Below, piece after piece: positions 10,995-32,668 of a stretch of DNA of 54,434 nt. The notes under the pieces are model-generated. The model did no database searches, had not been told where the DNA came from, and was given only the letters and a program-made list of their open reading frames with translations. Location: contig JANYKT010000055.1 in assembly GCA_025358085.1 (NCBI GenBank), positions 1 to 54,434 on the forward strand, given 5' to 3'. The stretch comes from Deltaproteobacteria bacterium. Lineage in GTDB: Bacteria > Myxococcota > Myxococcia > Myxococcales > 40CM-4-68-19. Every line of letters begins with the position of its first letter. Position 1 is the stretch's first letter. A program made the position numbers and the translations under genes.

Positions 10995-11393
10995 TTATCT
11001 AGATTGCTCAGGCTGAAAAGCGCGCAGGTATTTCACCAGCGCCGCCGTCTCCTCGGCAGAGTACCTGCCCTGGTAAGACGGCATTGCCTTGTCGGCCGTG
11101 CCCTCGTTCATGACCTTTGTAATCGCCGCGTCGGTGAGATCCTTCCAGAGGGCGGCCTGCGTAAGGTCCTTGGTCTTGAGCTTGAGACCGATGGGCGTCT
11201 TCGCCTTGCCGTCCCGGCCGTGGCAGGTGGAGCAGCGAGCGTTGTAGAGGTCCTGACCGACGTCGTCCGGAGGGACGGCGGCTGGACCCGGAACGGCGGG
11301 TGGAGCCGGAGCGGCGGCCCGCTCTGTGGCGCGCGCCGCACCAGCGGCGACGGCAATGATCAGCGTGGCGGCGAACGCGCGGAGGTTCTTCAT
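10995..11393 (-). CDS. Small periplasmic monoheme cytochrome c
   Basis: A 132-residue class I-like cytochrome c. A signal peptide (MKNLRAFAATLIIAVAAGAARA) is followed by an Ala/Pro linker and a single heme site CSTCH near residue 55. A distal Met is offered by KAMPSYQ near residue 103, and there is a C-terminal helix SAEETAALVKYLRAF. It would carry single electrons in the periplasm. It is the last gene of the operon running from 18809: its ATG is two bases after the stop of the multiheme cytochrome gene, with AGGAGG inside the upstream gene's end. It likely hands electrons to or from the conduit proteins encoded upstream. Confidence 0.9.
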   Translation of the reverse strand: MKNLRAFAATLIIAVAAGAARATERAAAPAPPAVPGPAAVPPDDVGQDLYNARCSTCHGRDGKAKTPIGLKLKTKDLTQAALWKDLTDAAITKVMNEGTADKAMPSYQGRYSAEETAALVKYLRAFQPEQSR

Positions 11394-11395
11394 CG

Positions 11396-13231
11396 CTAGC
11401 CTCCTGTCGGCCAATTGGGAAAGAGCGAGTCAGGCGCGGGCGCGCCTTGAAGTCGGGGTGCAGGCGCCGGGCCAGTTTGCCTCGGCTGGGAAAGACAGGG
11501 CAGGCCGGGGCCGCAATACGTCGCGGGGTCGTGGTTCACGCCGTGGCAGCTCAGGAAACACTGGCCGCCCTTGCCCATGGGAAGGAACGCAAGCTGGCCG
11601 CGCTTGTTCACCTGCACGATGCGCGGATCGAACTGCACCAGCGAAGGCTGGTCCGAGCCGTGCGAGTTGTGGCAGGCGGCGCAGGGCGCGCGCAGGTCGA
11701 CGATGTGCTTGCGGTGCTGCGGGAACGATTGGTCGGCGAGAATGCTCGAGCGGTTGTGGCAGCGGTAACAGAGGTCGAAGCGCGCCGGGCTCTCGGGCAG
11801 GTTGTCCTCGGTTGAGTATTGACGCACCAGCAGCGGCGCGTAGATCGATCCGTGCGGCCCCTGGGCGGCGGCTGCCTCGTCGTTCCCGTGGCAGTCGGTG
11901 CAGCTCATCACGCTTGCACCGCTGAGCGGCGGCAGCAGCGACGGCAGCGAGGTGCCGCGACCGGGTCCGAGCACCGGGTGGAAGGAGGTGCTGGTGAATT
12001 GCTTCTGGACGTCCGGCTGCCGGGCGGGCCGGTTCGCGGCCGGCCCGTGACAGAGGAGGCAATTCTGCGCCTCGTTGGGAAACCGCCGTGTGGTCGAGGA
12101 GCGCATGCGCGTGCCGGCCAGGTCGCGCGGCTCCTGGGGCGGCGGGCCGTGCGCGTCGTGGCAGTCGAGACACTTGACGTGACGGCGCGCATTCGAATTC
12201 GTCTCGGGAGACCGCTCCGAGGAGCTGTGCTCGCCCGGCCACTCGACCGGGTGGTGCGACGGCTTGAGAAATTGCGACTGCACGTCGGACGTATTGACGC
12301 GCTCGGAGAGCCGGCCGGCGCGCACTTCCTCACCGCGACCCGAGCCGTGGCAGCGGTAGCACGAGTCCTCGTCGCGCCCGAACAGCAGGCCGCGCTTTCC
12401 CTCGGGCGGCGCGTGGCCCGCGTGGCAACTCATGCATGCGAGCGGAAGCGTCTCGGTATTGAGGTGAGCGCCGCCGCGGGGCGCGCCCAGAGGCGGTTCG
12501 CCGGCTGCGAGCACCAGCGCCGATGAGCGCGGCGCGGCCACGAGCGCGTGCGGGCCTTGATCGGCGGGCGCCTGCGCGTGGCAGACCACGCAGGTCCCGG
12601 CGCGCTGGGGCTTGTTGTAGAAGCGCACGCCGCTGGTGGCGAAGTTGTCGTCGTTGTGCGGGTCGTGACACGCGGTGCACTGCACGCGATTGGCCCCGTC
12701 GAGATGCACGAGCGGATCGGCCTTCATCGCCGCCACCGTATTGAGAGGCGCGTTCTTCGCGTTGTTGGCAGCGACGAGCTGGTCGGTGACGGCGAACGAG
12801 ATCGGGTGCGTGCGGCTCAGGTCGGTGCCGATGAAGCCGGTCTCTCCCGCAACCATCGCCGTCTTGCCCCCGGCGAGCGGGATGAGGCCCTTGGCGACCG
12901 CGCCCAGCGCGACCGTGCCGTCGTGGCAGGAGAGGCAGAGCTTGGAGGACCCGTTCGGGTCGGGCGCGGTGGCCTGGCTCGAGTACGCGATCATCGTCGG
13001 CGAGAGGTACTTGAGATAGGTCACTCCGCTCGAGAGTTGGTGGTTCCAGAGCGGCCCGGCGGGGTTCGAGTTGTGCGGCGTGTGGCAGAAGATGCAGACC
13101 TGCGTCTCGGTGGTGGCGCGCACCGGACCGGGCCCCGAGGTGGAGAGGTTGTGGGGCGTGTTGACAATGCTGCCCGCGCCCAGCGGCCGGGACATCGCGA
13201 GCAGCACCGCGAGAAAGGCCACGCGCTTCAT
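11396..13231 (-). CDS. Multiheme cytochrome c with an OmcE-like N-terminal tetraheme module
   Basis: A 611-residue exported cytochrome (signal MKRVAFLAVLLAMSRPLGAG). There are eleven CXXCH sites (CIFCH, CLSCH, CTACH, CVVCH, CMSCH, CYRCH, CLDCH, CLLCH, CTDCH, CYRCH, CAACH) plus one spaced C-X3-CH site (CFLSCH) near the C-terminus, so about 12 hemes. Residues 20-220 share an ordered pattern with the tetraheme protein at 19019-19870: HNLSTSG, VCIFCHTPHN, PLWN, LCLSCHDGT, GTDLSRTHPISF, CTACHDPH, CVVCH. The rest resembles doubled-CXXCH cytochromes. Its ATG overlaps the NHL gene stop (ATGA). It is probably the secreted or surface cytochrome served by the barrel proteins encoded upstream. Confidence 0.92.
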   Translation of the reverse strand: MKRVAFLAVLLAMSRPLGAGSIVNTPHNLSTSGPGPVRATTETQVCIFCHTPHNSNPAGPLWNHQLSSGVTYLKYLSPTMIAYSSQATAPDPNGSSKLCLSCHDGTVALGAVAKGLIPLAGGKTAMVAGETGFIGTDLSRTHPISFAVTDQLVAANNAKNAPLNTVAAMKADPLVHLDGANRVQCTACHDPHNDDNFATSGVRFYNKPQRAGTCVVCHAQAPADQGPHALVAAPRSSALVLAAGEPPLGAPRGGAHLNTETLPLACMSCHAGHAPPEGKRGLLFGRDEDSCYRCHGSGRGEEVRAGRLSERVNTSDVQSQFLKPSHHPVEWPGEHSSSERSPETNSNARRHVKCLDCHDAHGPPPQEPRDLAGTRMRSSTTRRFPNEAQNCLLCHGPAANRPARQPDVQKQFTSTSFHPVLGPGRGTSLPSLLPPLSGASVMSCTDCHGNDEAAAAQGPHGSIYAPLLVRQYSTEDNLPESPARFDLCYRCHNRSSILADQSFPQHRKHIVDLRAPCAACHNSHGSDQPSLVQFDPRIVQVNKRGQLAFLPMGKGGQCFLSCHGVNHDPATYCGPGLPCLSQPRQTGPAPAPRLQGAPAPDSLFPNWPTGG

Positions 13232-14244
13232 GGCGCCTCCCCGGGGAGGCCGTCGGGCGCGACCTCGAAGAGCAGCACGCGCGCGTTGCCGGTGTCCACC
13301 ACGGCCACCTCGCCGTTATGCACCGCCAGTCCTGCCGGCATCCAGAACTGGCCCGGACCGCGGCCGTGCTCGCCGACGAAGAGGAGCAACCGCCCTTCCT
13401 CGTCGAAGATCTGAAAATTGTCGAACATGGTATCGGCCAGGTAGATGCGCCCGGCGGCATCGGCGGCGATGCCCTTCGGCCGGTCGAGATCGCCCGAGCC
13501 GTTGCCGGCGTGACCGAACGTGCTCGCGAAGGTTCCGTCGGGGCCGAAGATCGCGATCCGGAAGTTCATCGTGTCGTTGACGATCGCGCGGCCCGCAGCA
13601 TCGACGGCGACGAAGGTGGGGAAGTTCAGCTCGCCGGGACCGCTGCCGTGGCCGCTGCCGAGGACGCGCACTGGCGTCCCGTCGAGCTTGAGGACGCGGA
13701 CGACGTGCGCCGGCGTGTCCACCACGTAGAGGAGCTTGCGGGCGCGGTCGATGGAGACCCCGGTAGGCCGCTGCAGCGTGCCTCCGGCGTCGATGCGCGC
13801 GAGCCACGCGCCGTCGGGCGAGAGCACCTGCACCACGTTGCGGCGGCCGTCGGCGACGTAGATGCGCCCTTCCCCGTCGCTCGCTACGCCCATCGGGAGC
13901 AGGAGCGCGTGCTCGCCTTCAAGCGTGAGGACGCGATACTCGCCGCGCTCGCGATCGATGACCACCACCGCGCCGCGCGCCCGGTCGGTCACCAGCAGCC
14001 GGCCAGAGGTATCGAACGCCGCGGCGAACGGCGACTGCAGCACGTCGGGAACGCTCGCCCCGACGAACAGAGAGGTGAATCGCTGCCAGGCCGACGGGTC
14101 GGAAACGTCGCTCTCGCCGCGAACCTCGCCCCGGTACAGTACGCGCGCGCGCTGCGGCGCAGGCGGCCACGACAGCGAGGGCGGGCGCGGCCTCGCGGCG
14201 GAGCAAGCGCAGACGCAAAGAAGCACGACGGAGGCTCTGTTCAT
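13228..14244 (-). CDS. NHL-repeat beta-propeller lipoprotein
   Basis: A 338-residue lipoprotein (MNRASVVLLCVCACSAA, lipobox VCAC) with about six NHL blades of the type LPMGVASDGEGRIYVADGRRNVVQVLSPDG between residues 75 and 325. NHL propellers are protein-binding scaffolds, and such genes recur next to surface multiheme cytochromes in Geobacter-type organisms. It is translationally coupled to the cytochrome gene downstream (ATGA overlap) and directly abuts the upstream barrel gene (stop 14245). It is paralogous to the NHL protein at 20016-21104. A role in cytochrome assembly or secretion is inferred from position only. Confidence 0.88.
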   Translation of the reverse strand: MNRASVVLLCVCACSAARPRPPSLSWPPAPQRARVLYRGEVRGESDVSDPSAWQRFTSLFVGASVPDVLQSPFAAAFDTSGRLLVTDRARGAVVVIDRERGEYRVLTLEGEHALLLPMGVASDGEGRIYVADGRRNVVQVLSPDGAWLARIDAGGTLQRPTGVSIDRARKLLYVVDTPAHVVRVLKLDGTPVRVLGSGHGSGPGELNFPTFVAVDAAGRAIVNDTMNFRIAIFGPDGTFASTFGHAGNGSGDLDRPKGIAADAAGRIYLADTMFDNFQIFDEEGRLLLFVGEHGRGPGQFWMPAGLAVHNGEVAVVDTGNARVLLFEVAPDGLPGEAP

Positions 14245-15926
14245 TTAGTGCTCCGGCAAGAAGGAAAAGCGCAGGGACCGGGTGAAGAGCACGCTGACCG
14301 AGTGAGTGCCGCCGTCCGACGGGAACGCGCGGCTGTAGATGTAATTGAGGGAGAGGTTCGACTCGCGGAAGGTCCAGACCCCCGACGCGAGCAGCGCCGC
14401 AGAGGTGCCGCCGTTCAGCTGGTGCGTGACGTCGGCGGCCAGGTTTCCAAAGGTCCCCGGCCCGAAGGAAAACGCGTTGCCTGCGTGCGCGAACAGCGAA
14501 CCGGTCGCTACCGTGTTGGGCTGATTCGACCACCCTTCCGACCAGCCAGCGGCGAAGGTCACCACGGTGCGCGAGACCGGCGCGGCGCCGCTGAGCAGCA
14601 GGCTGGTGGAGCTGTTCTCGAGCCAGCCGTCGACCACCGGAGAGGTCTGCGCGGTGCGGGTATAGGTGAACGCCGGCAGGAGCAGCACGCGGCCGCGGAT
14701 GAAAATGGTGGAGACGTTGCCGTTGAGCGTTCGGCTGCTCAGGGCCGCGGTGGACCGGTCGTCGCGCAGCGCGTAGGAGACCGCGCCGCGGACGGGGAGC
14801 CCGAGCACCGGCCCTTGCGCATTGCCGCTCGCCCCAAAGCCCAGCAGCAATCCCGGGCGGCCATCGGAGACCTCGCTGTACCCGACCTGCCCGCTGGTGC
14901 CGAGCCCGAATTGCAGCGCCCCCGCTCGACCAAAAGTCGAGAGGCCCTGCGCAGCCGAGACGGTTGCAAGAGTCCTCTTCAGCCCGGGCGCGGAGATGGT
15001 GGAATAGGTTGCGGCGGCCCCTTCGCCGAGCAGCAGCGGAAGCGGGCGCAGGTCGATGGTCGCGCCCGTGGTCAGCGCGTTCGACTCCTGGTCGCGGTCG
15101 CTCGCGCCCGCACCGTTGAAGGCATATTCCGTGCGCAGCAACGTCCGCGAGCCCAGCCGCGAGAACAGGCTGGCCGAGGTCTGGTATCCGTTGAAGCCTT
15201 CCTCCTGGTCGCCACCCAGGCCGCGGCCCTGCACGATGCCGGCCTGCAGGCGCGCGCTGGTGTCGCGCCCCGGGTAAAGGTCGTCCGCGATCGAGGCGAG
15301 CAGGGTTCCTGTTGAGCGCTCCGTGCCGGTCCGCTGCGCCGACCAGGTGGCGACGCCGGCGTACCGGTGCAGGCTGGACTCGCCGTGCACCGCGCCGCCG
15401 ATCGAGTCCGCGACGTAGCGCGGCTGATTTGGGGCCTCCTCGATCAAGCGCTGCACCTGCAGTTCAGCTTTGGGCAGCAGGGAACTGACAAGTTGGGCGG
15501 TACCGGAGAGCGAGGTCGTGCTGGCGGACTGCACCGCCTCGGCGGTGGAGCCGGGGAGCGTGAGCCCGCGCGCCAACGAAAGCGTGAGGGGAAGGATCGA
15601 TCCCGAGAACAGGCGCAGCGACGTTCCGTAGCCGAAGCTGTACGGACCCGAGCGGTGTGGCGCGAGCTGATCCAGGTGCAGCACCAGCACGAATGAGCGG
15701 AAGGTGAGGTAGCGCGAGTCGCCCACCCAACCCCCCAGGTCCGCGCTCACGCCCTCACCGAGCTGGTTGGTCAGCAGCAGGCCGCGGTGCGATGGGCTCA
15801 AGCTGCCGGCGTATGAGACCAGCGCGCGCCCCGTCAGCGTCCAGCTGGAGGTGTCGTCCTGCACGAACACCTGCGCCTGCGCGGCGCCAGCCAGGCCGAT
15901 GCAGAGGCCGGCGAAAAGGGCGCACC

Positions 15927-15930
<4 letters not shown>
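14245..15930 (-). CDS. Outer-membrane beta-barrel protein of a porin-cytochrome cluster
   Basis: A 561-residue protein with signal peptide MRCALFAGLCIGLAGAAQA. There follow long alternating polar/hydrophobic strands with many short turns, and a C-terminal strand ending ...SLRFSFLPEH, as expected of an outer-membrane barrel. There is no CXXCH. Size and content match the large barrels that sheath periplasmic multiheme cytochromes, or the conduits for secreted ones, but no family was recognised by sequence. Its ATG overlaps the stop of the upstream OmpA-like gene by four bases, and its stop abuts the NHL gene, so the proteins are probably made together. Confidence 0.75.
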
Positions 15931-17867
<1,937 letters not shown>

Positions 17868-17891: not shown

Positions 17892-18809
17892 CTACTGGTT
17901 CGCCAGCACGATCTTCCCCGCCGCGTGCAGCCGATCGTCGAGTTGCTGCAGCGCGGCCTTCCGGGTCTCGTCGCGCAGGTCGGCGAGGATCGAAGCCTTT
18001 ACGTCGTCGAAGGTGGCCTGCCGCGGCGCCTGCGTGGCCTCGCGCTTGAGCAGGTACCAGCCGCGCAGCGAACGGAGCGGCGCGGTGATTTCGCCATCGG
18101 CGATTCCCCAGCCGCCCTTCTCCATCACCGGGTCGAGGCTGCCTTGGTGCACCAAGCCCAGGTCGCCGCCCTTGGGCGCGAACGCGTCGCACTTCTGCTG
18201 GGTGGCGATCGCCGCGAAGTCCACCTTCAGCGCCCGGTCGCGCAGCGTCCGGGCCTCGACCTCGGCTGCCTGCCACTGCTTTTCATTGGAAGACGGATCG
18301 ACGCGGACGCAGGTCGCACGCAGCTTGAGGGCGCCCGGGACCAGGTACCGCAGGGGATTGGCCTGGTAGCGCGCCAGCGCCTGGGCGGCCGTGGGCACCG
18401 GGACACCATTGACTTCGAGCTCCGTGAGCCGACTGGCGAGCGCAGGCCGGGAGATGATCTCGAGATAGCGCGCGCGATCGATGCCGTAGGTGGCGAGCAT
18501 GGTCTCGAACTTCTCGCGCCCGCCGGCGTTCTTCTCCTCGCCGGCCGCGAGCTGCTCGAGCGGCGCCTGCGGAATCGAGAGCCCCCGCCTGCGCGCCTCC
18601 TGCGCGCGCAGCTCCGCGGTGATCAGCTCATCAAGCACCTTCTTGCGAACGTCGGCGGTCTGCTTCTCGTCGAGTTGGCGGTGGAACATGGTCTTGCGGA
18701 TGCGGTCCCCCATCGCCTTGACCACTTCGGGTTCGGTGATGGGCTTGAGGTTGACCGTAGCTGGCGAGGTGGCGAGTGCGAGGACGAAGACGAAGACGAG
18801 CGGGAGCAT
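17892..18809 (-). CDS. PpiC/SurA-type periplasmic peptidyl-prolyl isomerase
   Basis: A 305-residue exported protein (MLPLVFVFVLALATSPA). A SurA-like N-terminal helical region (about 25-140, with the DELITAELRAQEARRRGL segment) precedes a parvulin domain (about 165-270: LRATCVRVDPSSNEK...GGDLGLVHQGSLDPVMEKGGWGIADGEITAPLRSLRGWYLLKRE). These enzymes chaperone outer-membrane proteins and some cytochromes. The start at 18809 has GGAG upstream and makes a signal peptide; a reading from 18956 does not. It is the first gene of the operon down to 10995, with a sigma54-like site at 18882-18897. PpiC genes are repeatedly found with nanowire cytochromes in Geobacter-type clusters. Confidence 0.88.
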   Translation of the reverse strand: MLPLVFVFVLALATSPATVNLKPITEPEVVKAMGDRIRKTMFHRQLDEKQTADVRKKVLDELITAELRAQEARRRGLSIPQAPLEQLAAGEEKNAGGREKFETMLATYGIDRARYLEIISRPALASRLTELEVNGVPVPTAAQALARYQANPLRYLVPGALKLRATCVRVDPSSNEKQWQAAEVEARTLRDRALKVDFAAIATQQKCDAFAPKGGDLGLVHQGSLDPVMEKGGWGIADGEITAPLRSLRGWYLLKREATQAPRQATFDDVKASILADLRDETRKAALQQLDDRLHAAGKIVLANQ

Positions 18810-18930: not shown

Positions 18931-18967
18931 AGAAAAGGAGCGCCGGGAGGAATCACCCGGCGCTCCC
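18931..18967 (-). terminator. Rho-independent terminator after the tetraheme cytochrome gene
   Basis: A perfect 11-base stem GGAGCGCCGGG / CCCGGCGCTCC (18938-18948 with 18957-18967) has an 8-base loop and is followed on the minus strand by TTTTCTT. It ends the tetraheme cytochrome transcript about 50 bases after its stop and isolates it from the ppiC operon. Confidence 0.88.
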
Positions 18968-19018
18968 TTTGGAGCCTGCAACGCTTACTTCCCGGCGGCT
19001 ACCCTGCCGGTTGCGAGA

Positions 19019-19870
19019 CTACTTGTTGTGGCAGGTGAGGCAGAGGTTCGAGTTCTGGTTTGACTTGATGAGGAACGGGTAGTTGCTGGCGGCGGTCAGG
19101 TCGCCCTGCATGTGCGGCTCGTGGCAGGAAGCGCACTCCAGCTGGTTCTGCACGCCTGCGCCATTCTTGGTGAACAGCATCTGGGACGAGATGGTGTTGG
19201 CGGCCACGTTGCCGGCCCGCAGGATGACCAGGGCGCCGGTGGTCCCGACGTTGGTCAGGGCGGTGGTCGGGTCGCGCAGCGTGCTGCCCTTCAAGGTGGC
19301 CAGCGCGGCGTCGAAGGTGAACGAGATCGGGTGGTCGTTGGTCAGGTCGGTGCCGATGGTCGCGCTGGCCGGGCCGGGAGCGGAGGCGCCGGTCATGTTC
19401 GTCACCACCACGGCGCCGGACTGGAACGTGTAGCTGCCGGGGAGGATTCCGCCGACGGGCAGGGCCGCGTCGAGATCGATCATCGGGCCCTGGTTCAGGG
19501 AGTTGAACGCCGTCACGCCGTCATGACAGGACAGGCAGGCCAGCGAGACCGGGCCGACCGGGCGCGCGACCGTGTTGGTGTCGGCTGCGTTGAGCTGGAA
19601 GGTGGAGCTGTTGGCCGCCGAGTACATCTGGAAGGAGGTGGTGCTGTTGGTGCGGTTCCACAGCGGCGCGCCGACGTTCACCGCGTTGTGAGGCATGTGG
19701 CAATAAACGCAGACCTGGTTCTGGGCCTGGCCCGCGGCGCCCTGCACGTCCTTGCCGGTCGCCGACAGGTCGTGCGAGGAGGCGACCACGCTCGTCGCTG
19801 AAAATGCCGATGCGCCGGTCGCGAGGACTGCGATTACGAGAGCTGGGAAGATCTTCATGAGCTTCGTCAT
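19019..19870 (-). CDS. Tetraheme cytochrome c resembling OmcE-type nanowire cytochromes
   Basis: A 283-residue exported protein (signal to about residue 23, ...ATGASAFSA) with exactly four CXXCH sites: CVYCH, CLSCH, CASCH, CLTCH. The spacing and surrounding motifs are SSHDLSATG near the mature N-terminus, VCVYCHMPHNA, PLWNR, LACLSCHDGVTAFN, TDLTNDHPISF, ECASCHEPH and a CLTCHNK end. From memory these match the Geobacter OmcE family, which polymerises into extracellular heme filaments; the match was not tested by alignment. The middle is rich in Thr/Ala/Gly/Asn, as in secreted filament subunits. It has its own sigma54-like promoter and a strong terminator, suggesting high, separate expression. 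Start 19870 has GGAG upstream; Met5 is an alternative. Confidence 0.9.
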   Translation of the reverse strand: MTKLMKIFPALVIAVLATGASAFSATSVVASSHDLSATGKDVQGAAGQAQNQVCVYCHMPHNAVNVGAPLWNRTNSTTSFQMYSAANSSTFQLNAADTNTVARPVGPVSLACLSCHDGVTAFNSLNQGPMIDLDAALPVGGILPGSYTFQSGAVVVTNMTGASAPGPASATIGTDLTNDHPISFTFDAALATLKGSTLRDPTTALTNVGTTGALVILRAGNVAANTISSQMLFTKNGAGVQNQLECASCHEPHMQGDLTAASNYPFLIKSNQNSNLCLTCHNK

Positions 19871-19956: not shown

Positions 19957-19972
19957 CGCAACCTCCGGGCCA
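19957..19972 (-). promoter_or_regulatory. Candidate sigma54 promoter of the tetraheme cytochrome gene
   Basis: Minus-strand TGGCCCGGAGGTTGCG matches TGGCACG-N4-TTGC at all positions but A5. The predicted transcript start is near 19946, about 75 bases before ATG 19870. Confidence 0.65.
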
Positions 19973-20015: not shown

Positions 20016-21104
20016 TCACCGCGCGACGACCGGATCCTGGGGCTTCTCACCCACCGCTGGGGCAACAGCCCCAACCACCGCGGCCGCTGCCCCAATGGCT
20101 GGCTGCTTGAGATAGGCGTAGCGCTGCACCCGGTGATTCATCTGGTCGACCACGAAGAGGTGATCGGTCGAGTCGATGGAGATCCCCTCGATGAGCTGAA
20201 AGTCGCCGGGCTTCGAGCCGGGCGCCCCCAGCCAGATGAGCAGCTTCCCTTCCTGGTCGAACACCTGGACGTTGCAGAACGCGGCGTCGCTCACGTAGAC
20301 GTGATTCTCCGAGTCGAGCGCGATGCCCTTGGGCCGCGCGAACGAGCCCGGCTCCTGGCCGATCAAGCCGTGCGTCAAGAGGAACTTCCCCTCGGCGTCG
20401 AAGACCTGGTAGCGAAAGTTCAGCGAGTCGACGACGTAGACCTTGCCGTCTTTTCCGATCGTTACGCTCGAGGGGTAATTGAACTTGCCTGGATCATTGC
20501 CCCGCTCGCCGATGGTGCGCACCAGCTTCTTGTCCACCAGCGAAAACACCTGCACGCGGTGACCCTTGCTGTCCGCGACGTAGAGGAGCTTGCGCTGCGG
20601 ATCGACCGCCGCGTCGACAGGCGTCTCCAGCGATTCCTTGGACCCGAACACGCCGAGGAGCTTTCCGTCCGGCGCGAACTCGAAGACCTGGCGAAGCTTG
20701 CCGTCGGCGACGAAGAGGTTCCCGTCCGGGTCGAGGCCCATGCCAAGCGGCAGGACCAGTCGCCCCTCGCCCTCGACGCCGATCAGGCGAACTTCGTGTT
20801 TCACCTCGTCAAACACCTCGATGCGCGGCGGCTTGGCGGTGTCGCTGATGTAAACGAGGCCCTTGCCGTTGGAGGCGACGTCCATCGGCTTGAAGAGTTG
20901 GTGCTGCTCGGCCGCGGTCTTGCTGCCGAAGACCGCGTCGAGAGCGCCGCTCTTCTCGTATTCAGCCGAGCCCGTATAGATATGCTCCAGCTTGTAACGC
21001 GCCGGCTCCGGCGGCGGCGGGACCACCACGTCGTACTTCTGGTTCGTGCTGTGGGCGCAGGCGAGCAGCGCGGCAAAGACAGCAACGATGGTAATGCGCT
21101 TCAT
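20016..21104 (-). CDS. NHL-repeat beta-propeller lipoprotein
   Basis: A 362-residue lipoprotein (MKRITIVAVFAALLACAHS, lipobox LLAC). Six NHL-type blades lie between about residues 70 and 335, for example FKPMDVASNGKGLVYISDTAKPPRIEVFD and FARPKGIALDSENHVYVSDAAFCNVQVFDQEGK. An Ala/Val/Pro-rich tail follows. It has AAGGAG before the ATG, embedded in the end of the 19-heme cytochrome gene ten bases upstream, so the two are one operon. It lies between two cytochrome genes and is paralogous to the protein at 13228-14244. Binding or helping to export a cytochrome is inferred from context. Confidence 0.9.
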   Translation of the reverse strand: MKRITIVAVFAALLACAHSTNQKYDVVVPPPPEPARYKLEHIYTGSAEYEKSGALDAVFGSKTAAEQHQLFKPMDVASNGKGLVYISDTAKPPRIEVFDEVKHEVRLIGVEGEGRLVLPLGMGLDPDGNLFVADGKLRQVFEFAPDGKLLGVFGSKESLETPVDAAVDPQRKLLYVADSKGHRVQVFSLVDKKLVRTIGERGNDPGKFNYPSSVTIGKDGKVYVVDSLNFRYQVFDAEGKFLLTHGLIGQEPGSFARPKGIALDSENHVYVSDAAFCNVQVFDQEGKLLIWLGAPGSKPGDFQLIEGISIDSTDHLFVVDQMNHRVQRYAYLKQPAIGAAAAVVGAVAPAVGEKPQDPVVAR

Positions 21105-21113: not shown

Positions 21114-22625
21114 TTAGTGCTTGGCGTGGCACCGCGTGCAGACGTCCATCTTCGTCTCGCCGCTGAGCCACAGCTTGGGCCTGTTGCTGCTGTGAGGGTC
21201 GTGGCAGGACAGGCAAGACAACGTCTTGCCCGGCCGCGCCGGGTCGGGCTTTCCTTCCATCGGATGAATCTTTCCGTCGAATGAAACGAAGACGTGGTCG
21301 CCGGTGATCTTCGCGTGGCAGGTCAGACAAAGCTTGTTGCCGGTCGCCTTGAGCAGCTTGTCGTCGTTGGAGCCGTGCGGGTCGTGGCAGCCGACGCACC
21401 CGAACTGCGTGAGCGCCGGGTGCACGTTCTTCTTGATTGCTATGGCCTCATGGCAAGTCTGGCAGAGCTTGTCTTTCGGGCTGGTCAGGTTGGCCGCGTT
21501 CTCCGACGAGTGCTGCTCGTGGCACATCAGGCACAGGCCGCGATCGACCGGGTAATGCACGCTCTTGCGTCCAGTCGAGTCGTCGGAATGGCAGCGAAAG
21601 CACATGTCCGAAACCTTCGCGTCCCGGACCAGCCCATTGTTGTTGGACGAGTGCGGATCGTGGCAGGTGGTGCAGCGCCCGAGCACCACGGCGCTGTGGA
21701 CGTGCTTGTCCTCGTCGAGACGCGCGTGACATTTGTAGCAAAGCGTCGGCGGCGGGACCTTGAGCAGCTTGGCGTTGTCGGACGCGTGGTGCTGGTGGCA
21801 GTCGGTGCAGTCCCCGCCCGATACCGCCTTGTGCACGGTCTTCAGCGTGAGGTCGATGACCTTGCTGGGCATGCCCGGCTTTCCCGACTGCTTCGGGTCA
21901 TGGCACTTGAGGCACAGCGCTTTGCCGGGCTCCAGCGTCTGCGCTTTGTTGTCGCTCAGGTGCGGGTCGTGGCAGCCGAGACAGTTGCCGGAGGTCACTG
22001 GAGAATGGACGCTCTCGCCTTTGGTCAGCTTTGCTTTGTCGTGGCAAGCGAAACAAAGCAGTTCGCGCTTGTCGATGAGCAGCGGCTTTGCCTCGCCCGC
22101 GTGCGGGCTGTGGCACCCGAGGCACTTGCCCTGCTTGACGGCGGTGTGAATGAACTTGGCGTCATCGAACCTGGCGTGACACTTGGCGCAGAGCGCCTCG
22201 ACCGGGAAGGTCTTGAGCAGCGAAGGATTCTTCGACGCGTGCGGGTCATGGCAAGCAACGCAGCCCGAGGTCTTGATGACCGGGTGCAGCGGCGTCACCG
22301 CGGTCACGTCATGGCACTTGGTGCACAGCGCCGGCTGCTCGGCCTTCAGCTTCCAGGCCGGCCCCGCGGGGCTCTGGCATTTGCCAGCCACGCCTGGCGC
22401 CGCGACGTGGCACGAGTCGCACTCCCCGCTTCGAGCTGGCTTGTGCGCTTTGAGATCCGTGAGCATCGGCGCGTGGCAGCTGAGGCAGGCATTGAGGTCG
22501 GCTCCGCGCGCCGGAGGGACGGCTACGACAGGCGTCGCGGCCGCATCGGCCGGGGCTGGTTCGCCCGCGACGGCCGCATTGCCCGCGGCCGCCAGCAACA
22601 CGATTGCGAAAAGCGGCGCCAGCAT
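21114..22625 (-). CDS. 19-heme doubled-CXXCH cytochrome c
   Basis: A 503-residue exported cytochrome (signal MLAPLFAIVLLAAAGNAAVAG) with 19 CXXCH sites, about one heme per 25 residues. It is built from repeated pairs of the type CxxCHDPHASxN...LCxKCH (doubled CXXCH, paired cytochrome family). Each pair is followed by an HxxV/HP segment giving distal ligands. Such proteins act as long periplasmic or surface heme wires. The gene starts an operon with the NHL gene. The ATG at 22625 lacks a Shine-Dalgarno sequence, and a stop codon lies in frame nine bases upstream, so no longer start exists. A sigma54-like site lies at 22639-22654. Confidence 0.93.
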   Translation of the reverse strand: MLAPLFAIVLLAAAGNAAVAGEPAPADAAATPVVAVPPARGADLNACLSCHAPMLTDLKAHKPARSGECDSCHVAAPGVAGKCQSPAGPAWKLKAEQPALCTKCHDVTAVTPLHPVIKTSGCVACHDPHASKNPSLLKTFPVEALCAKCHARFDDAKFIHTAVKQGKCLGCHSPHAGEAKPLLIDKRELLCFACHDKAKLTKGESVHSPVTSGNCLGCHDPHLSDNKAQTLEPGKALCLKCHDPKQSGKPGMPSKVIDLTLKTVHKAVSGGDCTDCHQHHASDNAKLLKVPPPTLCYKCHARLDEDKHVHSAVVLGRCTTCHDPHSSNNNGLVRDAKVSDMCFRCHSDDSTGRKSVHYPVDRGLCLMCHEQHSSENAANLTSPKDKLCQTCHEAIAIKKNVHPALTQFGCVGCHDPHGSNDDKLLKATGNKLCLTCHAKITGDHVFVSFDGKIHPMEGKPDPARPGKTLSCLSCHDPHSSNRPKLWLSGETKMDVCTRCHAKH

Positions 22626-22872: not shown

Positions 22873-24360
22873 ATGAGCTACATCCGGAGCATCTGGGCGC
22901 GCCTCGACGCGAGCGTTCGGGCTCGTGTGTTCCTCCCCTCCGCCCTGCTGTTCGCGGTGACGATGGCGACGATGGTCTTCGCGTCGGTGGAACTGCTCGG
23001 TAAAGACCTGGAAGTAGCAGCACACCAGCGTGCCGAGCTCTTCATCCACGTCGCGGCAGACGGCCTCACGGCAGCGATGATCCACTCGGGCGCGAACGCG
23101 TTGCCCGAGATGCTCACGGTGGTGAACCAGCATCGCGAAGAGATCATCTCGGTCAGCCTGCTTCGCGAAAACGGCGTCGTCATTTCGTCGTCGGACAAAT
23201 CGCTGCTGGAGACCTCGCCCTGGAGCGAGTTGCCGTCGAGGGACCGCGTAACGGTGGTGCCCGTCGACGCGAAGCAGTTTGCCGTGGTGCGCCCGATCGA
23301 AAACGAGGACCGGTGCGTGCGCTGCCATGGGCCGGTTTCCAAGCTCAACGGCTGGCTCGACGCGCGCTTCTCCCGCGAGCCGGTCACCAGCGCAAAGACG
23401 CTCCTCGCCGGCAAGCTTGCCACCGCGGCCGTCCCCTCACTGGTCGTCCTGCTCGCGATCGCCTGGTGGCTGCTCGGGCGCGAGGTCGTCAACCCGCTGC
23501 AGCGGCTGGTCCGCGCGATGCAGCGGGCAGCGGCGGGGGACATTGAGGTCGTCGCCAACGAAGGCCGTCCCGACGAGGTCGGGATCGCGGCTCGCGGCTT
23601 CGACGCCACGCTTTCGGCGCTCCACAGCAGCACGCGCGAATTGGAGAAAGTCTATGCAGACCGAATGGTGCGCGCCGATCGCTTTGCGGCAGTCGGCGAA
23701 ATGGCCACCGGACTGGCGCACGAGATTCGCAATCCATTAGCCGGACTCTCCGGGGCGCTGGAGCTTCTCGCGGAAGATCTCGCCTCCTCACCGCCGCAGG
23801 CCGAGGTGGTCAAGGAGATGCGCCACCAGATCGGGCGGCTGACGCAGACGATGGAGGGCCTCTTGCGCTTCGCGCGGCCGCCCCGTGCGCGCATGCGAAC
23901 CCTGGACGTGAATGCAGTGCTGGAAAACGTCCTCTTTCTCGTGCGCCAGCAACGGACCTCAAAGGCCACCATTCATATCGTCAGGCATTCCGAGCCTCTG
24001 CTGCCGCCGGTGGACGGCGACCCGGCGCTGCTCGAGCAGGTCTTTGTCAATGTCTGTCTCAATGCTTGTCAGGCAATGAATGGGGCTGGCGGAACTCTCA
24101 CCGTGAGCAGCCTTTTGCGCGACGGTCGCGTCATCATCGAGATCGCCGACAGCGGTCCGGGCATTCCAGAAGCGGTCCGCGCGCATATCTTCACGCCCTT
24201 CTTCACCACCCGCCACGATGGCAACGGTCTTGGCCTCGCCATCTCCGCCCGCATCGTCCTCGAGCACGGCGGACTGATCGACTTCAGCTGCCCGAAATCA
24301 GGCGGCACCATCTTCTCCGTGTCGCTGCCCATCGGCACGTCCATCGAACAGGCCGCATGA
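22873..24360 (+). CDS. Membrane sensor histidine kinase with a periplasmic c-type heme motif
   Basis: 495 residues. TM1 is at about 18-38. A periplasmic sensor region (about 40-180) carries DRCVRCHGP (CXXCH at 148-152), and TM2 is at about 183-202. Then come a HAMP domain, a HisKA domain with LAHEIRNPLAG (His283), an N-box (NVCLNACQAM), DSGPGIP and FFTTRHDGNGLGLAI. One CXXCH in the sensor domain implies a covalently bound heme, so the kinase may sense redox state or a gas at the periplasm; the ligand is unknown. The start at 22873 has GAGG upstream and places TM1 correctly. It overlaps the regulator gene by ATGA and is divergent from the cytochrome island, which it probably controls. Confidence 0.92.
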   Translation: MSYIRSIWARLDASVRARVFLPSALLFAVTMATMVFASVELLGKDLEVAAHQRAELFIHVAADGLTAAMIHSGANALPEMLTVVNQHREEIISVSLLRENGVVISSSDKSLLETSPWSELPSRDRVTVVPVDAKQFAVVRPIENEDRCVRCHGPVSKLNGWLDARFSREPVTSAKTLLAGKLATAAVPSLVVLLAIAWWLLGREVVNPLQRLVRAMQRAAAGDIEVVANEGRPDEVGIAARGFDATLSALHSSTRELEKVYADRMVRADRFAAVGEMATGLAHEIRNPLAGLSGALELLAEDLASSPPQAEVVKEMRHQIGRLTQTMEGLLRFARPPRARMRTLDVNAVLENVLFLVRQQRTSKATIHIVRHSEPLLPPVDGDPALLEQVFVNVCLNACQAMNGAGGTLTVSSLLRDGRVIIEIADSGPGIPEAVRAHIFTPFFTTRHDGNGLGLAISARIVLEHGGLIDFSCPKSGGTIFSVSLPIGTSIEQAA

Positions 24361-25772
24361 GCACGACTCCGCGAGTGTTGGTGGTGGACGACGAGAAGCT
24401 GATCCGCTGGTCGGTCAGCGAGCGGCTGACGAGGAAAGGCTGCCAGGTATCGGTCGCGGAAACAGGCGAACGCGCGCTGGAGCTGCTCGCCAGCGAGAAG
24501 CCGGAGGTGATGCTCCTCGATGTCCGGCTGCCGGGGATCGACGGCCTCGAGACGCTGCGTCGCGCGCTCGTGCTCCAGCCGGACCTGGTGGTGGTGATGA
24601 TGTCCGCCCACGGAACGGTTGATATCGCCGTCGAAGGAATGAAGCGCGGAGCAGTCGATTTCCTTTCCAAGCCATTCCCGCTGGCGATGCTCGATGCTGC
24701 GGTTGCGCGGGCCCATGCGGCCGCCGAGACGCGGCGGCTCCTCGCCGGCGCGGGCACGGAGCTCCTGACCGAGGCGAGCGAGGGCGGCCTGGTGGGCAGG
24801 TCTCCCGCCATCGAACGGATTCGCGCCATGGTGGGGCGCATCGCAAAAAGCGACTTCGCTACCGTGCTGGTCGAAGGCGAGAGCGGAACCGGCAAGGAGG
24901 TCGTCGCCCGCGCCATTCATATCCAGAGCGCACGGGCGTCCAAGCCGTTCCTCTGCGTGAACTGCGCCGCACTCCCGGAGCAGCTGCTCGAGAGCGAATT
25001 GTTCGGACACGAGCGCGGCGCCTTTACCGACGCGCGTGAGCAGAAGGTGGGGCTTTTCGAGGCCGCAGCCGGCGGGACGGTCATGCTCGACGAGGTCGGC
25101 GATATGCCACCGGGTGGCCAGGCGAAGCTGCTCCGCCTGCTCGAGAACCGGACCTTCCGCCGCGTCGGCGGCGTGTCGGAAATGCACAGCGACGTGCGCG
25201 TGGTGGCCGCCACCAATGCCGATCTCGAGCAGCGGGTGTCCGAGGGCCGCTTCCGCGCTGACCTCTATTTCCGGTTGAACGTGGTGCGGATCCAGATTCC
25301 GCCGCTGCGCGAGCGCGAGGAGGACGTGCCGCTGCTCGCGGCGGCCTTCATTGCCCGATACAACGAAGAGATGAAGCGGACGCTGCGCAGCATCTCGCCA
25401 TCCGCACTGGCACTGATGACAGCGTATCGCTGGCCCGGCAATGTTCGCGAGCTGCGCAATCTGATTGAACGCGCGCTCATCCTTCACGGGGAGTTCGACG
25501 AGCTGCGCCCGGAGCACCTTCCGGAGGCGGTCCGCGATGCCTTGTCCGCGGCGCACCCGGCCGCCGCGCACGCCGACCAGCCGATGACCGCGCCCAGCAC
25601 CCGCGCGGGCCCGGCTCCGGGTGTGCACCCCGCGCTCCTGGGGTCGATGGAGCGGCAGATGATTTGCGAGGCATTGGAGAAGAGCGGCGGAAATCAATCA
25701 GAGGCGGCACGGCTTTTGGGCATCTCGCGCGATACCTTGCGGTACCGACAGAAGCGGCACTCAATCGCTTGA
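24357..25772 (+). CDS. NtrC-family sigma54-dependent response regulator
   Basis: 471 residues: a receiver (about 5-118; acidic DDE at 11-13, phospho-site D55, K105), an AAA+ sigma54-activation domain (about 143-375; Walker A GESGTGK at 174-180, Walker B TVMLDEVGDM, R-finger region), and a Fis-type helix-turn-helix (SGGNQSEAARLLGISRDTLRYR). The sigma54-contact loop reads GAFTDA (221-226) instead of the usual GAFTGA, a variant known in some activators. It should activate sigma54 promoters after phosphorylation by the kinase encoded just upstream (ATGA overlap). Eight sigma54-like sites upstream of cytochrome, heme and signalling genes in this window are obvious candidate targets. Confidence 0.94.
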   Translation: MSTTPRVLVVDDEKLIRWSVSERLTRKGCQVSVAETGERALELLASEKPEVMLLDVRLPGIDGLETLRRALVLQPDLVVVMMSAHGTVDIAVEGMKRGAVDFLSKPFPLAMLDAAVARAHAAAETRRLLAGAGTELLTEASEGGLVGRSPAIERIRAMVGRIAKSDFATVLVEGESGTGKEVVARAIHIQSARASKPFLCVNCAALPEQLLESELFGHERGAFTDAREQKVGLFEAAAGGTVMLDEVGDMPPGGQAKLLRLLENRTFRRVGGVSEMHSDVRVVAATNADLEQRVSEGRFRADLYFRLNVVRIQIPPLREREEDVPLLAAAFIARYNEEMKRTLRSISPSALALMTAYRWPGNVRELRNLIERALILHGEFDELRPEHLPEAVRDALSAAHPAAAHADQPMTAPSTRAGPAPGVHPALLGSMERQMICEALEKSGGNQSEAARLLGISRDTLRYRQKRHSIA

Positions 25773-26526: not shown

Positions 26527-27141
26527 TCAGCTGGTGCCGTAACAGCCGACACGCAGCAGCCACGTTTCGGGCCCTGCGACCGGCGCGGCGGGCCCAGGCG
26601 AGTTGGCTAGATAGCGCATTGAACTGAATGGATCGATGAAGGCGGCGCTGATCTTCTCGCCCCAGGCGCGCGCATGATGCGCAAAATTCATCAGGACATA
26701 GCGCAGCGCATGGGCGGCCTCGCGGGGCGATTTCAGGATGTGCGCGTGATAGCGATCGGCGAAGACGCGACCCTTGCGCTTCATCATTCGGTTGAGCGCC
26801 CTCGCGAGCCGCACTTCGAGCCCCTTCATCCCGCGCGCGAGCGACCCTTTATCCGCTGCCTCGACCAGCAAATGCAGATGATTCCCTTGCACCGAGTAGT
26901 GGACGAGCCGGAACCCGAACCGTTCGCGCCCGGCGTGGAACGCCGGCTCCAGCGCACGAAGGGCCCGGAAGCTGCGCAAGTTCCAGCAGCCTTTCGCGAC
27001 CCGCAGCGTGACGTGGACCGGGTGGCGCGGGGCCAGCTCGGCTCGTTGCATGTGCGGCATGGCCCGGCTCTTCGCGCGCTTCCGCCCGGCCCCCGCGCGC
27101 CGGCCACCCCTCAAATGAAGATTCAGCTCCGTCTGCATCAT
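26527..27141 (-). CDS. REP-associated tyrosine transposase (RAYT, Y1/IS200-like)
   Basis: A 204-residue Y1_Tnp-type protein. It has a basic N-terminus (GGRRAGAGRKRAKSR), first strand HPVHVTLRV, the HUH metal-binding motif GNHLHLLVEA near residue 87, and MKGLEVRLARALNRMMKRKGRVFADRYHAHILKSP with the Tyr-containing helix. RAYTs are single-copy housekeeping-like transposases that act on REP hairpins. A REP-like hairpin (27226-27250) lies just upstream. A shortened paralogue follows at 27729-28193 in the same orientation. It appears intact. Confidence 0.9.
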   Translation of the reverse strand: MMQTELNLHLRGGRRAGAGRKRAKSRAMPHMQRAELAPRHPVHVTLRVAKGCWNLRSFRALRALEPAFHAGRERFGFRLVHYSVQGNHLHLLVEAADKGSLARGMKGLEVRLARALNRMMKRKGRVFADRYHAHILKSPREAAHALRYVLMNFAHHARAWGEKISAAFIDPFSSMRYLANSPGPAAPVAGPETWLLRVGCYGTS

Positions 27142-27728: not shown

Positions 27729-28193
27729 TCAACTCGCGCCCTGCCACCCCACGCGCAGCAGCCATGTCCGGGGGCGGGCGACCGGCGCTCCATCTCCGGG
27801 AAGGGTGGCGAGGTAGCGGATTGAGCTGAGCGGATCGATGAAGTGCGCGGACAACCGCTCGCGCCAAGCCTGCGCGTGATGGGCGAAGTTCGTCAAGACA
27901 TAGCGCAACGCTCGTGCGGCCTCGCGAGGGCTCTTCAGGACGTGCGCGTGGTAGCGGTCGGCAAAGACGCGTCCTTTTCGATTCATCATCCTGTTGAGGC
28001 CCCGCGCGGCGCGAGCCTCGAGTCCCTTCATCCCGCGGGCGAGCCATTCCTTGCTATCGGCTTCCACCATCAAGTGCAGGTGAATACCCAGAACGGAGTA
28101 ATGAACGAGCCGGAACCAGAAGCGCTCGCGCCCGGCGTTGAATGCGCTCTCGAGCACCCGCAACGCGCGATGGAAGTCCGGGTCCGTTTGCAT
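27729..28193 (-). pseudogene. N-terminally deleted RAYT paralogue
   Basis: 154 residues very similar to the RAYT at 26527-27141 from RERFWFRLVHYSV onward, including IHLHLMVEA, MKGLEARAARGLNRMMNRKGRVFADRYHAHVLKSP and the WLLRVG end. About 45 residues are missing after the initial MQTD, including the first core beta strand (HPVHVTLRV in the full copy). Loss of that strand should disrupt the catalytic fold, so it is probably inactive even though the frame is open. It likely arose by duplication and deletion. Confidence 0.75.
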
Positions 28194-28309
28194 CAATTGA
28201 TTAAAGCATACATATGGGAAAAGTCAGGCGGGGCCTGCAATCGGCCCTCTGTGCCAGCGTGAATTGGTGCCTGCACCCGTAAAACCTGGGCACGGTGCGC
28301 GGAGGGCCA

Positions 28310-29277: not shown

Positions 29278-29757
29278 ATGCCAGACGAAGGTTGTCCGCT
29301 CAAAAAGAAGCGCTCGCGCCGGGGCTTCATCGACATCATGCTCGGGCTCGGCTTCATGGGCTCCACGGCCAGCGTGGTCTACCCGGTGCTGCGGTACCTG
29401 AAGCCGCTCGGACCCTCCGGTGCCCAGGGGCCGATGAAGCTCACCAAAGAGGACCAGGCCAAGCTCGAGCGCGAGCACATGCTGATCGTGCGCTCCGGCA
29501 CCACTCGCATCCTCGTCTTCGAGGACGGGCAGCAGAAGCTGCGGGCGCTGGACGCGCGCTGCACCCATGAGGGCTGCACGGTGCAGTTCGTACCTGGTGA
29601 ATCGCTGATCTGGTGCGCCTGCCACAACGGCAAGTTTGATCTCGACGGCCGCGTGCTCTCCGGTCCGCCGCCCCGGCCGCTGGCTCAATATTCATGCACG
29701 CGTGAAGCCGATGGGTCGCTGGTCGTCAATACCGACCGCAAGAAGGAGGAAGCATGA
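29278..29757 (+). CDS. Rieske iron-sulfur protein of a menaquinol-oxidising bc-type complex
   Basis: 159 residues. The N-terminus KKKRSRRGFIDIML is a Tat-like signal anchor (SRRGF), followed by one TM segment. The Rieske cluster motifs are CTHEGC and CACHNGKFDLDG, with the [2Fe-2S] ligands Cys-X-His and Cys-X-X-His near residues 97-120. It sits on the periplasmic face and takes the first electron from quinol. The start at 29278 has GGAGG seven bases upstream. The stop overlaps the cytochrome b start by ATGA, so the two are a complex. Confidence 0.94.
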   Translation: MPDEGCPLKKKRSRRGFIDIMLGLGFMGSTASVVYPVLRYLKPLGPSGAQGPMKLTKEDQAKLEREHMLIVRSGTTRILVFEDGQQKLRALDARCTHEGCTVQFVPGESLIWCACHNGKFDLDGRVLSGPPPRPLAQYSCTREADGSLVVNTDRKKEEA

Positions 29758-31124
29758 GCCGCGCCTTTGATTGGCTCGACAAGCGCTATGGCCTGACGCC
29801 ACTGGTCGACTTCCTCAAGCACAAGGAAGTTCCCGTCGGCGGTCATTCAATGGTCTGGTATTACCTGGGTGGCACCACGCTGTTCTTCTTCGCGAGCCAG
29901 GTCTGCACGGGTCTGTTGCTGCTGCTCTTCTACCAGCCCGGCGAAGCGACCGCTTACGAAAGCATCCGCTTCATCACCACCAAAGTGCCCTTTGGCTGGC
30001 TGGTCCGATCGCTCCATTGCTGGAGCGCACATCTCATGATCGTCTCATTGATTGTGCACATGTTCAGCACCTTCTTCCTCAAGGCCTACCGGCCGCCCCG
30101 CGAGCTGAGCTGGGTTACCGGCTTCGTCCTCTTCATGCTGGCGCTCGGGTTCGGCTTCTCCGGATACTTGCTCCCCTGGAACGAGCTGGCCTTCTTTGCC
30201 ACCTCGGTCGGCACCGACTCGATGAAAGCCGTTCCGGGCATCGGCGACTGGCTGTTACAGGTATTGCGCGGCGGCACCGACGTCAGCGCCCAGACTCTCT
30301 ATCGCTTCTTCGCGCTGCATGTGGTCGCGCTCCCGCTCATCACCGTCGGCCTGGTGGGCGGCCACCTCCTCTTCATCCAGCGCCAGGGAATGGCGCCGGC
30401 GATGGGCACCCACGTAGCCAGGCGCGGACTTCGCTTCTTTCCCGACTTCCTGCTTCGCGACCTGCTGCTCTGGCTCCTGTGCCTGATCCTGCTCGCGACG
30501 CTGGCGGTGAGCCTGCCTTACGGCCCCGGGCTCCCGGGCGTCGAGTGGGAGCTGGGGAAGAAAGCCAATCCCCTGGCTCCTGCATATCCCGGCATCAAGC
30601 CGGAATGGTACTTCCTCTGGGTCTATCAACTGCTGAAGGAATTTCCACCGCACATCCTGGGAATGGAAGGCCCGCAGGCGGCCATACTGCTGGTCTCGGT
30701 CATGCTGGGGATCTGGGCGGCGGTGCCGTGGCTCGACCGGCGGGCGCAGCGGGATGAGTCTTCGACGGCCTTCAGTGATCTGGGCGTGGCCGCCATCCTC
30801 TTCGTCGGCTATCTCACGCTCAAAGCCTGGGATATCGGCGGCAAAGGCCTCAAGGTGCCCGATACCTTCGCGGTCGCCCGTGCAACCTCCATCATTACCG
30901 TCATTGTGGCGGCGGCGATCTTCGCGCTCCGCCGCTTTGCCTACCAGCACAGGTTCTTCCTGCTGAGTGGCGCCGCCACGCTGCAGATCGCATTGCATGG
31001 CTTTCTCCGGGTCTCCTATCTGAATGCCGGTATCGTTTCAGTTCTGCTGATAGCCGCCGGCTTCGCCTATCTGCGTCTGCGTCCCGGGCCTTCTGTCCCG
31101 CCTCGCCTGGGAGTCGCGCCATGA
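29754..31124 (+). CDS. Cytochrome b (b6f/bc type, N- and C-domains fused)
   Basis: 456 residues with about ten to eleven TM segments. Heme-b histidine pairs are visible in RSLHCWSAHLMIVSLIVHMF and in FFALHVVALPLITVGLVGGHLLF. The quinol-site motif is KPEWYFLWVYQLLKEFP (PEWY). The four-helix core is followed by the subunit IV-like part and extra C-terminal helices. It oxidises menaquinol in the inner membrane. It is coupled by ATGA overlaps to the Rieske gene before it and to the nine-heme cytochrome gene after it, which replaces cytochrome c1. Confidence 0.94.
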   Translation: MSRAFDWLDKRYGLTPLVDFLKHKEVPVGGHSMVWYYLGGTTLFFFASQVCTGLLLLLFYQPGEATAYESIRFITTKVPFGWLVRSLHCWSAHLMIVSLIVHMFSTFFLKAYRPPRELSWVTGFVLFMLALGFGFSGYLLPWNELAFFATSVGTDSMKAVPGIGDWLLQVLRGGTDVSAQTLYRFFALHVVALPLITVGLVGGHLLFIQRQGMAPAMGTHVARRGLRFFPDFLLRDLLLWLLCLILLATLAVSLPYGPGLPGVEWELGKKANPLAPAYPGIKPEWYFLWVYQLLKEFPPHILGMEGPQAAILLVSVMLGIWAAVPWLDRRAQRDESSTAFSDLGVAAILFVGYLTLKAWDIGGKGLKVPDTFAVARATSIITVIVAAAIFALRRFAYQHRFFLLSGAATLQIALHGFLRVSYLNAGIVSVLLIAAGFAYLRLRPGPSVPPRLGVAP

Positions 31125-32668
31125 TCGCCCTCGCTCTGCTGCTCGCCGCCGCCATCGAATATTCCGCGCCGCTGAAGCAATTCGTCGGCGCGGTCGGCAA
31201 GGACGGGAAGCCGGTGCTCACGCAAGGCCAGCTGCACACGCTCGACGGGCTGCCCGAGCACACCCGCGAGCTGCTTTCCACTGCTATCGACAATCAAATC
31301 ATCGGCAGCGCGAAGCATCTGGGCATCCTGCTCTCGGTCGATATGCCGGCCCAGTCGCTGGCGCTGGTCGCGCAGGACAATTGCGTCCTTTGCCACACCG
31401 ACCCCGGCAACGTGAAAGCCAGAAGTCTCTTCTCTCCCGATCCGAAAGTATCAAATTCCAATCCCTTGCTGAACCTGACCGAGTTCGTCAACGACACGCA
31501 CTTCCGCCAGGGACTCTCCTGCTCGGGCTGCCACGGAGGGACGCCCAAGGACGAGTCGATGGCGAATGAGATCGCCCAGCGCTGGCCCAGCGACCCCGGG
31601 CTGCGCCACGCGGACCGGACCTGGATCCCCGGGTTCTGCGCGCGTTGCCACTCCGACCCCGCGTTCATGCGCGGCTTCAGCCCGGCCATGCCCACCGACC
31701 AATTGGTCAAGTATCAGCAAAGCAAGCATGGGACACTGCTGCTCGGCGAGCACGATTCAAAAGCGGCCCAATGCGTCAGTTGCCACGGCGTGCACGGCAT
31801 CCGCGGTGCGAAGAGCCGCAATTCGAAAGTCTACGCCCAGCGCATTCCGGAGACCTGCGGCACTTGCCACGCCGACGCGCAATATATGGCCGGCTACAAG
31901 AACGTAAACGGCGATCCACTGCCGACCAACCAGCTGGCGCAATACAAGCTCAGCGTGCACGGCAAGGCATTGTTGGAGAAGGGCGACCTGGGTGCGCCCG
32001 CCTGCAACGGCTGCCACGGCAACCACGGCAACAACGTCGCTGCGACTGCGGTGGCCGTGGCGAGCTTCTCGCAAGCCTGCCGGACCTGCCATCCAACGAA
32101 CGCCTCCCTCTTCGAAGCCAGCAAGCACAAGAAAGCCTTTGACGAGCACCAGTGGCCCGCATGCGAGCAATGCCATGGGCGCCACCAGATCATGAAGCCC
32201 ACTGATGCGCTCCTGGCCAATGAGCCCGGCGCCCTTTGCTTCGATTGCCATGCAAAGTATTCAAAGGAAAACCTGGCTTGCGGCAAGACCGCGGCGCATT
32301 TCAAGGGCGCGCTCACGCAGCTCGGCGAGGGGAAGGCGGAACTCTCGGGCACCGTCGAGCACCTCGCCGAAGCGGGTCTGGACGTGGAGCCCCTGACCGG
32401 CGTGATCGGCGAATTGAGCGAGGCCGTGGTGCAGACGCGAACTCGAGTGCATTCCTTCGATCAAGGCACCTTCGATTCGGCTGCGACCCCCGGCCTCGAG
32501 ACGCTTGCGCGCGGGCGCAAGCTGGTGGCCGACGCGAGAGCCGAACACGGCTTCCGTCGCAAGGGCCTGCTGATGGCCATCGGCTCGCTGCTGCTGCTGG
32601 CTTCGGGGCTGGCTTTCAAGATCAGGGGCCTGGGCAGCCGCGCCTCGGATGACGAGAAGCGGCCGTGA
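31121..32668 (+). CDS. Membrane-anchored nine-heme cytochrome c of the bc-type complex
   Basis: 515 residues. A short signal (MIALALLLAAA) precedes nine CXXCH sites: CVLCH, CSGCH, CARCH, CVSCH, CGTCH, CNGCH, CRTCH, CEQCH, CFDCH, between about residues 85 and 385. A helical segment follows, and a C-terminal TM anchor (LLMAIGSLLLLASGLAFKI) with a basic tail. It probably receives electrons from the Rieske protein and passes them to periplasmic carriers, as multiheme subunits do in other delta-type quinol complexes. It overlaps cytochrome b (ATGA) and FeoB (GTGA). Confidence 0.92.
   Translation: MIALALLLAAAIEYSAPLKQFVGAVGKDGKPVLTQGQLHTLDGLPEHTRELLSTAIDNQIIGSAKHLGILLSVDMPAQSLALVAQDNCVLCHTDPGNVKARSLFSPDPKVSNSNPLLNLTEFVNDTHFRQGLSCSGCHGGTPKDESMANEIAQRWPSDPGLRHADRTWIPGFCARCHSDPAFMRGFSPAMPTDQLVKYQQSKHGTLLLGEHDSKAAQCVSCHGVHGIRGAKSRNSKVYAQRIPETCGTCHADAQYMAGYKNVNGDPLPTNQLAQYKLSVHGKALLEKGDLGAPACNGCHGNHGNNVAATAVAVASFSQACRTCHPTNASLFEASKHKKAFDEHQWPACEQCHGRHQIMKPTDALLANEPGALCFDCHAKYSKENLACGKTAAHFKGALTQLGEGKAELSGTVEHLAEAGLDVEPLTGVIGELSEAVVQTRTRVHSFDQGTFDSAATPGLETLARGRKLVADARAEHGFRRKGLLMAIGSLLLLASGLAFKIRGLGSRASDDEKRP

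Follow-up and report, generated by a model that had tools for sequence, protein, structure and literature searches.

Within the window, as we call the whole 54,434-nucleotide stretch of DNA that was analysed, an intact 283-codon-product ORF (19019-19870, (−) strand) encodes a tetraheme cytochrome that, judged by sequence comparison and structure prediction, is a true homologue of OmcE. OmcE holds four hemes stacked end to end and makes electron-conducting filaments on Geobacter. We consider it probable that the protein encoded here is likewise a subunit of an OmcE-type cytochrome filament, which is the best overall explanation of the locus from export of the protein to the route of its electrons. 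The 283 aa precursor is preceded by a ribosome-binding site (GGAG) and starts with a signal peptide ending at ASA|F (22/23), both assigned by inspection. It has exactly four CXXCH motifs, at residues 54, 112, 246 and 277, and exactly eight histidines (33, 58, 61, 116, 180, 250, 253 and 281); the motif count and the sequence motifs that an earlier, sequence-only reading had quoted are all present. Among all PDB sequences, the best phmmer match was OmcE (7tfs, E=8e-21) and the second was 9yuq (4e-16). A profile of eight close homologues matched OmcE over its full length (4e-45), and the profile (HMM) comparison with OmcE that the sequence-only reading had proposed as a check gave, with 106 homologues, a match at 4e-57; with the same profile 9yuq, a second solved homologue, was matched at 2e-49. 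In alignments to 7tfs, the four CXXCH motifs follow OmcE's order and spacing and H33, H61, H180 and H253 fall at the positions of its distal histidines, so that the OmcE layout claimed for the heme sites proved to be an identical ligand layout. Each of the eight histidine positions was kept in 93–99 of 99 aligned rows, for which 98 tetraheme homologues had been picked by similarity and motif count alone, without reference to histidines.

The predicted fold agreed with this assignment. AlphaFold2 given an input of only eight sequences returned an unusable model (pLDDT 32), and 106 homologues were used instead, without templates (pLDDT 73, pTM 0.74). Searched against the PDB with Foldseek, this model had OmcE as its sole significant match (E 6e-10), and VIA-align superposed the two with Z 12.9 and an rmsd of 3.0 over 188 of 202 residues at 36% identity. 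A lack of shared fold or ligand spacing had been named beforehand as the outcome that would speak against OmcE; we found the fold shared and the ligand layout the same, which supports the reading of the gene as an OmcE-like tetraheme cytochrome. Matches to Pfam and NCBIfam are to generic models only (PF09699, PF14522 and, weakly, TIGR03153), which would also fit an unrelated periplasmic tetraheme carrier, akin to cytochrome c3/c7 or NrfH, whose likeness to OmcE went no further than the repeated CXXCH. We regard such a carrier as highly improbable, because the OmcE alignment spans the whole chain, because W71, DG118, HP181 and a C-terminal CH are common to the protein and the OmcE family, and because the model matches OmcE and not the c3/c7 or NrfH folds. 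The NrfH and c3/c7 families were ruled out by the Pfam, NCBIfam and Foldseek results. Compared with OmcE of Geobacter sulfurreducens (GSU0618), with which it also shares a C-terminal CHxK, the window protein has longer loops (283 vs 232 aa), and whereas OmcE polymerises, the window protein is known here from its gene and predicted fold. PDB 9YUQ, a ‘putative multiheme cytochrome c’ with 16 chains, belongs to the same family by sequence comparison.

In OmcE, the distal ligand of heme 2 is a histidine supplied by the adjacent subunit (PMC12203936), and the hemes form a chain through the filament (PMC12954529). Eight histidines for four bis-His hemes leave none spare, which fits an OmcE-style histidine exchange. 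This bears on a second explanation, in which the protein belongs to the OmcE family but forms no filament and instead works as a monomeric or dimeric outer-surface electron carrier of a Uet-type porin-cytochrome complex, docked on the undecaheme cytochrome encoded nearby, at its OmcE-like head. That head could indeed be its docking partner, and PMC10734462 describes UetA simply as an extracellular tetraheme cytochrome belonging to a porin complex. We nevertheless think a non-polymerising carrier unlikely, since the protein shares its fold and full ligand set with a proven filament subunit, and if heme 2 is served in trans, as it is in OmcE, exactly eight histidines mean that a single chain by itself would be short of a distal histidine for one heme. 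The gene also has its own terminator, which fits a higher dosage of the subunit; the strong terminator reported from sequence was borne out (RNA fold z = −3.45). The promoter-like site reported with it was not: no sigma-70-like site was found upstream of the gene, and a sigma-54-like site (GG-N10-GC, 19957-19972, (−)) is of a kind found 30 times across the window against 25 expected, i.e. not above chance.

The tetraheme gene lies in a cluster whose order is 19-heme cytochrome, NHL, tetraheme, PpiC, TSP3-type protein, barrel-sized ORF, NHL and undecaheme, with a sensor kinase and a sigma-54 regulator divergent from it (Table 1). The 19-heme cytochrome, a candidate periplasm-spanning conduit by sequence, scored 183 bits against TIGR03508, where the cut-off is 192. 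For the TSP3-type protein there was no Pfam match; homologues were found in the L051 cluster (L051:10847-11812, E 6e-14) and in the genome G080. Of the NHL, PpiC and barrel neighbours named in the sequence-only reading, Pfam confirmed the first two, and the barrel, with no Pfam or NCBIfam match, stands by position. Cys-poor ORFs of ~560-670 aa occupy the same position in most of the other clusters examined; the window ORF had no sequence similarity to them, nor did it stand out in a crude test for beta-alternation (z 0.8).

Table 1. Positions of the features discussed, in window coordinates except for the last row, which lists loci of other genomes
Feature	Position	Strand	Basis or remark
Small monoheme cytochrome c downstream of undecaheme gene	10998..11393	(−)	PF13442
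Undecaheme cytochrome (UetJ-like)	11396..13231	(−)	OmcE-like head (residues 1-220) + seven-heme tail
NHL beta-propeller (UetH/I-like), just upstream of undecaheme gene	13228..14244	(−)	PF01436
Putative outer-membrane beta-barrel (UetC position)	14245..15930	(−)	By position only
Outer-membrane-type protein, calcium-binding TSP3-like repeats (by eye)	15927..17867	(−)	Syntenic in G080
PpiC/SurA-like peptidyl-prolyl isomerase (UetB/OscH-like)	17892..18809	(−)	PF00639, PF13624; start by inspection
Rho-independent terminator	18933..18970	(−)	After tetraheme gene, before PpiC; 15-pair stem + U-rich tail
OmcE-type tetraheme cytochrome (UetA-like)	19019..19870	(−)	Four CXXCH, eight His, signal peptide
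NHL beta-propeller (UetH/I-like; cf. OscD) upstream of tetraheme gene	20016..21104	(−)	PF01436
19-heme doubled-CXXCH cytochrome, MtrA/DmsE-like	21114..22625	(−)	MtrA 6r2q_A, E 1e-14
Sensor histidine kinase	22873..24360	(+)	One periplasmic CXXCH (CVRCH)
Sigma-54 response regulator	24354..25772	(+)	PF00158, PF00072
CXXCH kinases linked to OmcE-type clusters	L029, L031, L033, L037, L040, L042, L045, L051, L053, L057, L060, L064, L067, L069, L079		

Apart from the differences given below, this arrangement matches the gene set of the Uet (undecaheme electron transfer) complex of Tenderiales and Gallionella, described in cathode-oxidising Tenderiales (PMC10734462). The counterparts of UetA (tetraheme), UetB (PpiC), UetHI (NHL) and UetJ (undecaheme) are all in the one window cluster, with the barrel-sized ORF, without family match, at the position of UetC; the three trihemes UetDEG are absent, a 19-heme MtrA-like cytochrome being present instead, and the window has in addition the TSP3-type protein and the attached kinase and regulator. 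No triheme cytochrome was found in the window, whose multiheme ORFs have 11, 4, 19 and 9 hemes only, and there was no 6-heme ORF of the kind expected for an OmcS-type subunit. The domain types of OscH and OscD, as given by Shen et al. in 2025, are reportedly prolyl isomerase and propeller, respectively. In G. sulfurreducens the osc (omcS-companion) cluster likewise places genes for a prolyl isomerase, a propeller and a channel beside a filament cytochrome, the putative barrel being the channel's counterpart here (PMC13194489 and PMC12977616), and for OmcS wires a gene cluster concerned with folding, secretion and morphology is reported (PMC13194489). The osc cluster serves the hexaheme OmcS, however, and the window tetraheme is OmcE-type; OmcS and OmcE have neither sequence nor fold in common (PMC9473688).

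We found at least 499 relatives of the tetraheme, in many phyla, in a scan of species genomes, consistent with the report of OmcE homologues across bacteria and archaea (PMC12307469); no homologue was found in plasmid records. The genes usually neighbour NHL-propeller and PpiC genes, a barrel-sized ORF and an undecaheme cytochrome. Eighty relatives were kept, from Bacteroidota, Calditrichota, Pseudomonadota, Campylobacterota, Acidobacteriota, Nitrospirota, Planctomycetota, Gemmatimonadota and others. NHL proteins were present at 72 of the 80 homologous loci and PpiC at 26; at 57 of 74 other loci an NHL gene with the same orientation lay within 600 bp, and 40 of the 43 undecaheme genes of other genomes had one directly upstream. 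As background, NHL matches occur at only about eight loci of this 5.4-Mb genome, two of them in this cluster. In G080, from another family of the same order, the genes from NHL to NHL are in identical order on one contig, and the undecaheme gene adjoins NHL on a second. Identity to the G080 copies is 73% for the tetraheme, 60% for the undecaheme, 53% for PpiC and 37% for the barrel-sized ORF; dN/dS against the G080 copy (0.23/0.41) was uninformative. The contig belongs to its bin, because its HemA is closest to same-family copies (56-66% identical, as against mostly 39-49% to other families of the order). A filament cytochrome in a probable myxobacterial lineage, which the sequence-only reading had thought notable, is less so given the G080 cluster and the homologues present in 22 of the 195 genomes from this phylum, and OmcS homologues had already been reported in Anaeromyxobacter (PMC10954620). 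The OmcE-type family is not new, and the window protein adds a member to it.

The undecaheme partner carries a further copy of the OmcE domain. Its head (residues 1-219) matched OmcE at E=5e-25, i.e. more closely than did the tetraheme, and forms a complete OmcE domain, in which 33-34 of 34 aligned rows retain each of the eight OmcE-type histidines. In the tail, another 12 histidines outside the motifs are conserved, and a CX3CH at residues 558-563 (QCFLSCH) is conserved in 33 of 34 homologues; together these suggest that the ‘undecaheme’ may bind 12 hemes. At three loci of Acidobacteriota (L042, L046 and L069) and at L051, the undecaheme is split into neighbouring tetraheme and heptaheme genes, the latter matching the undecaheme tail at E 1e-44 to 1e-53. 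A tree of 159 domains strongly segregated heads from filament-type tetrahemes (4 changes vs 43 in shuffles): the window undecaheme head groups with the split-locus tetrahemes (98*), and the window tetraheme was placed with OmcE in the half made up of tetrahemes (unstarred branch support of 90). We infer from these comparisons that the undecaheme joins a filament subunit, its head, to a piece of the conduit; no statement of this was found in the literature searched. The OmcE-like head, the split genes and the kinases with c-heme motifs together suggest that the undecaheme is a terminal subunit, joining the filament to an outer-membrane conduit.

Like the window kinase, 15 of the 19 kinase ORFs linked to other clusters have one CXXCH in their periplasmic sensor domain. 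This conservation points to redox control through covalently bound heme, and the kinase beside the sigma-54 regulator is likely a c-heme redox sensor of the nanowire genes. Beyond the regulator, at 29754-32665 (+), a cytochrome b/b6 gene is followed by one for a nine-heme cytochrome that has a hydrophobic segment at its C terminus; the pair is a candidate for the module that oxidises quinol in a chain exporting electrons. The same surroundings contain FeoB (32722-34512, (+)), a cytochrome c assembly protein (40388-41968, (−)), HemA (46789-48135, (+)), of which contig C72 holds a second copy, and a HemN-looking radical-SAM protein. It is plausible that these genes form a respiration island with the filament cluster as its outlet. 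Two similar ORFs at 26527-27141 and 27729-28196 (−), with the motifs VHYSVQGNHLHLLVEA and VHYSVLGIHLHLMVEA, resemble REP-associated (Y1) transposases. In Geothermobacter hydrogeniphilus, an open frame with 57 CXXCH (L060:10750-19011) lies directly beside the OmcE-type gene.

Taken as a filament subunit, the tetraheme apoprotein would be exported and then loaded with four c-hemes, while the PpiC protein would keep it foldable and the barrel would pass it outward. Outside the cell, each subunit would receive the distal histidine of its heme 2 from a neighbour and would thereby be linked to it head to tail, giving a continuous heme chain. Electrons from the quinol pool would pass to the MtrA-like cytochrome with its 19 hemes, seated in the barrel, on to the undecaheme, whose OmcE-like head would be the terminal filament subunit, and so into the filament, with the c-heme-sensing kinase and the sigma-54 regulator switching the cluster. 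The likely role is extracellular electron transfer with metal oxides or partner cells, in either direction; the physiological role of OmcE and OmcS filaments is itself disputed (PMC11077965).

Taken alone, the tetraheme is a modest result, one more member of a widespread family. We know of no answer to how cytochrome nanowires start, how they attach to the cell or how they are supplied with electrons. Tentatively, and at somewhat less than even likelihood, we propose that UetJ-type undecahemes are terminal nanowire subunits in many phyla: the head would polymerise with the tetrahemes and the heptaheme tail would sit in the conduit, so that the protein would start, anchor and charge the filament, and a heme-sensing kinase would switch the system by periplasmic redox state. 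A concrete candidate for these steps is found in the cluster: a partner protein in which seven further hemes are added to a copy of the filament subunit, and which stands beside OmcE-type genes in many phyla.
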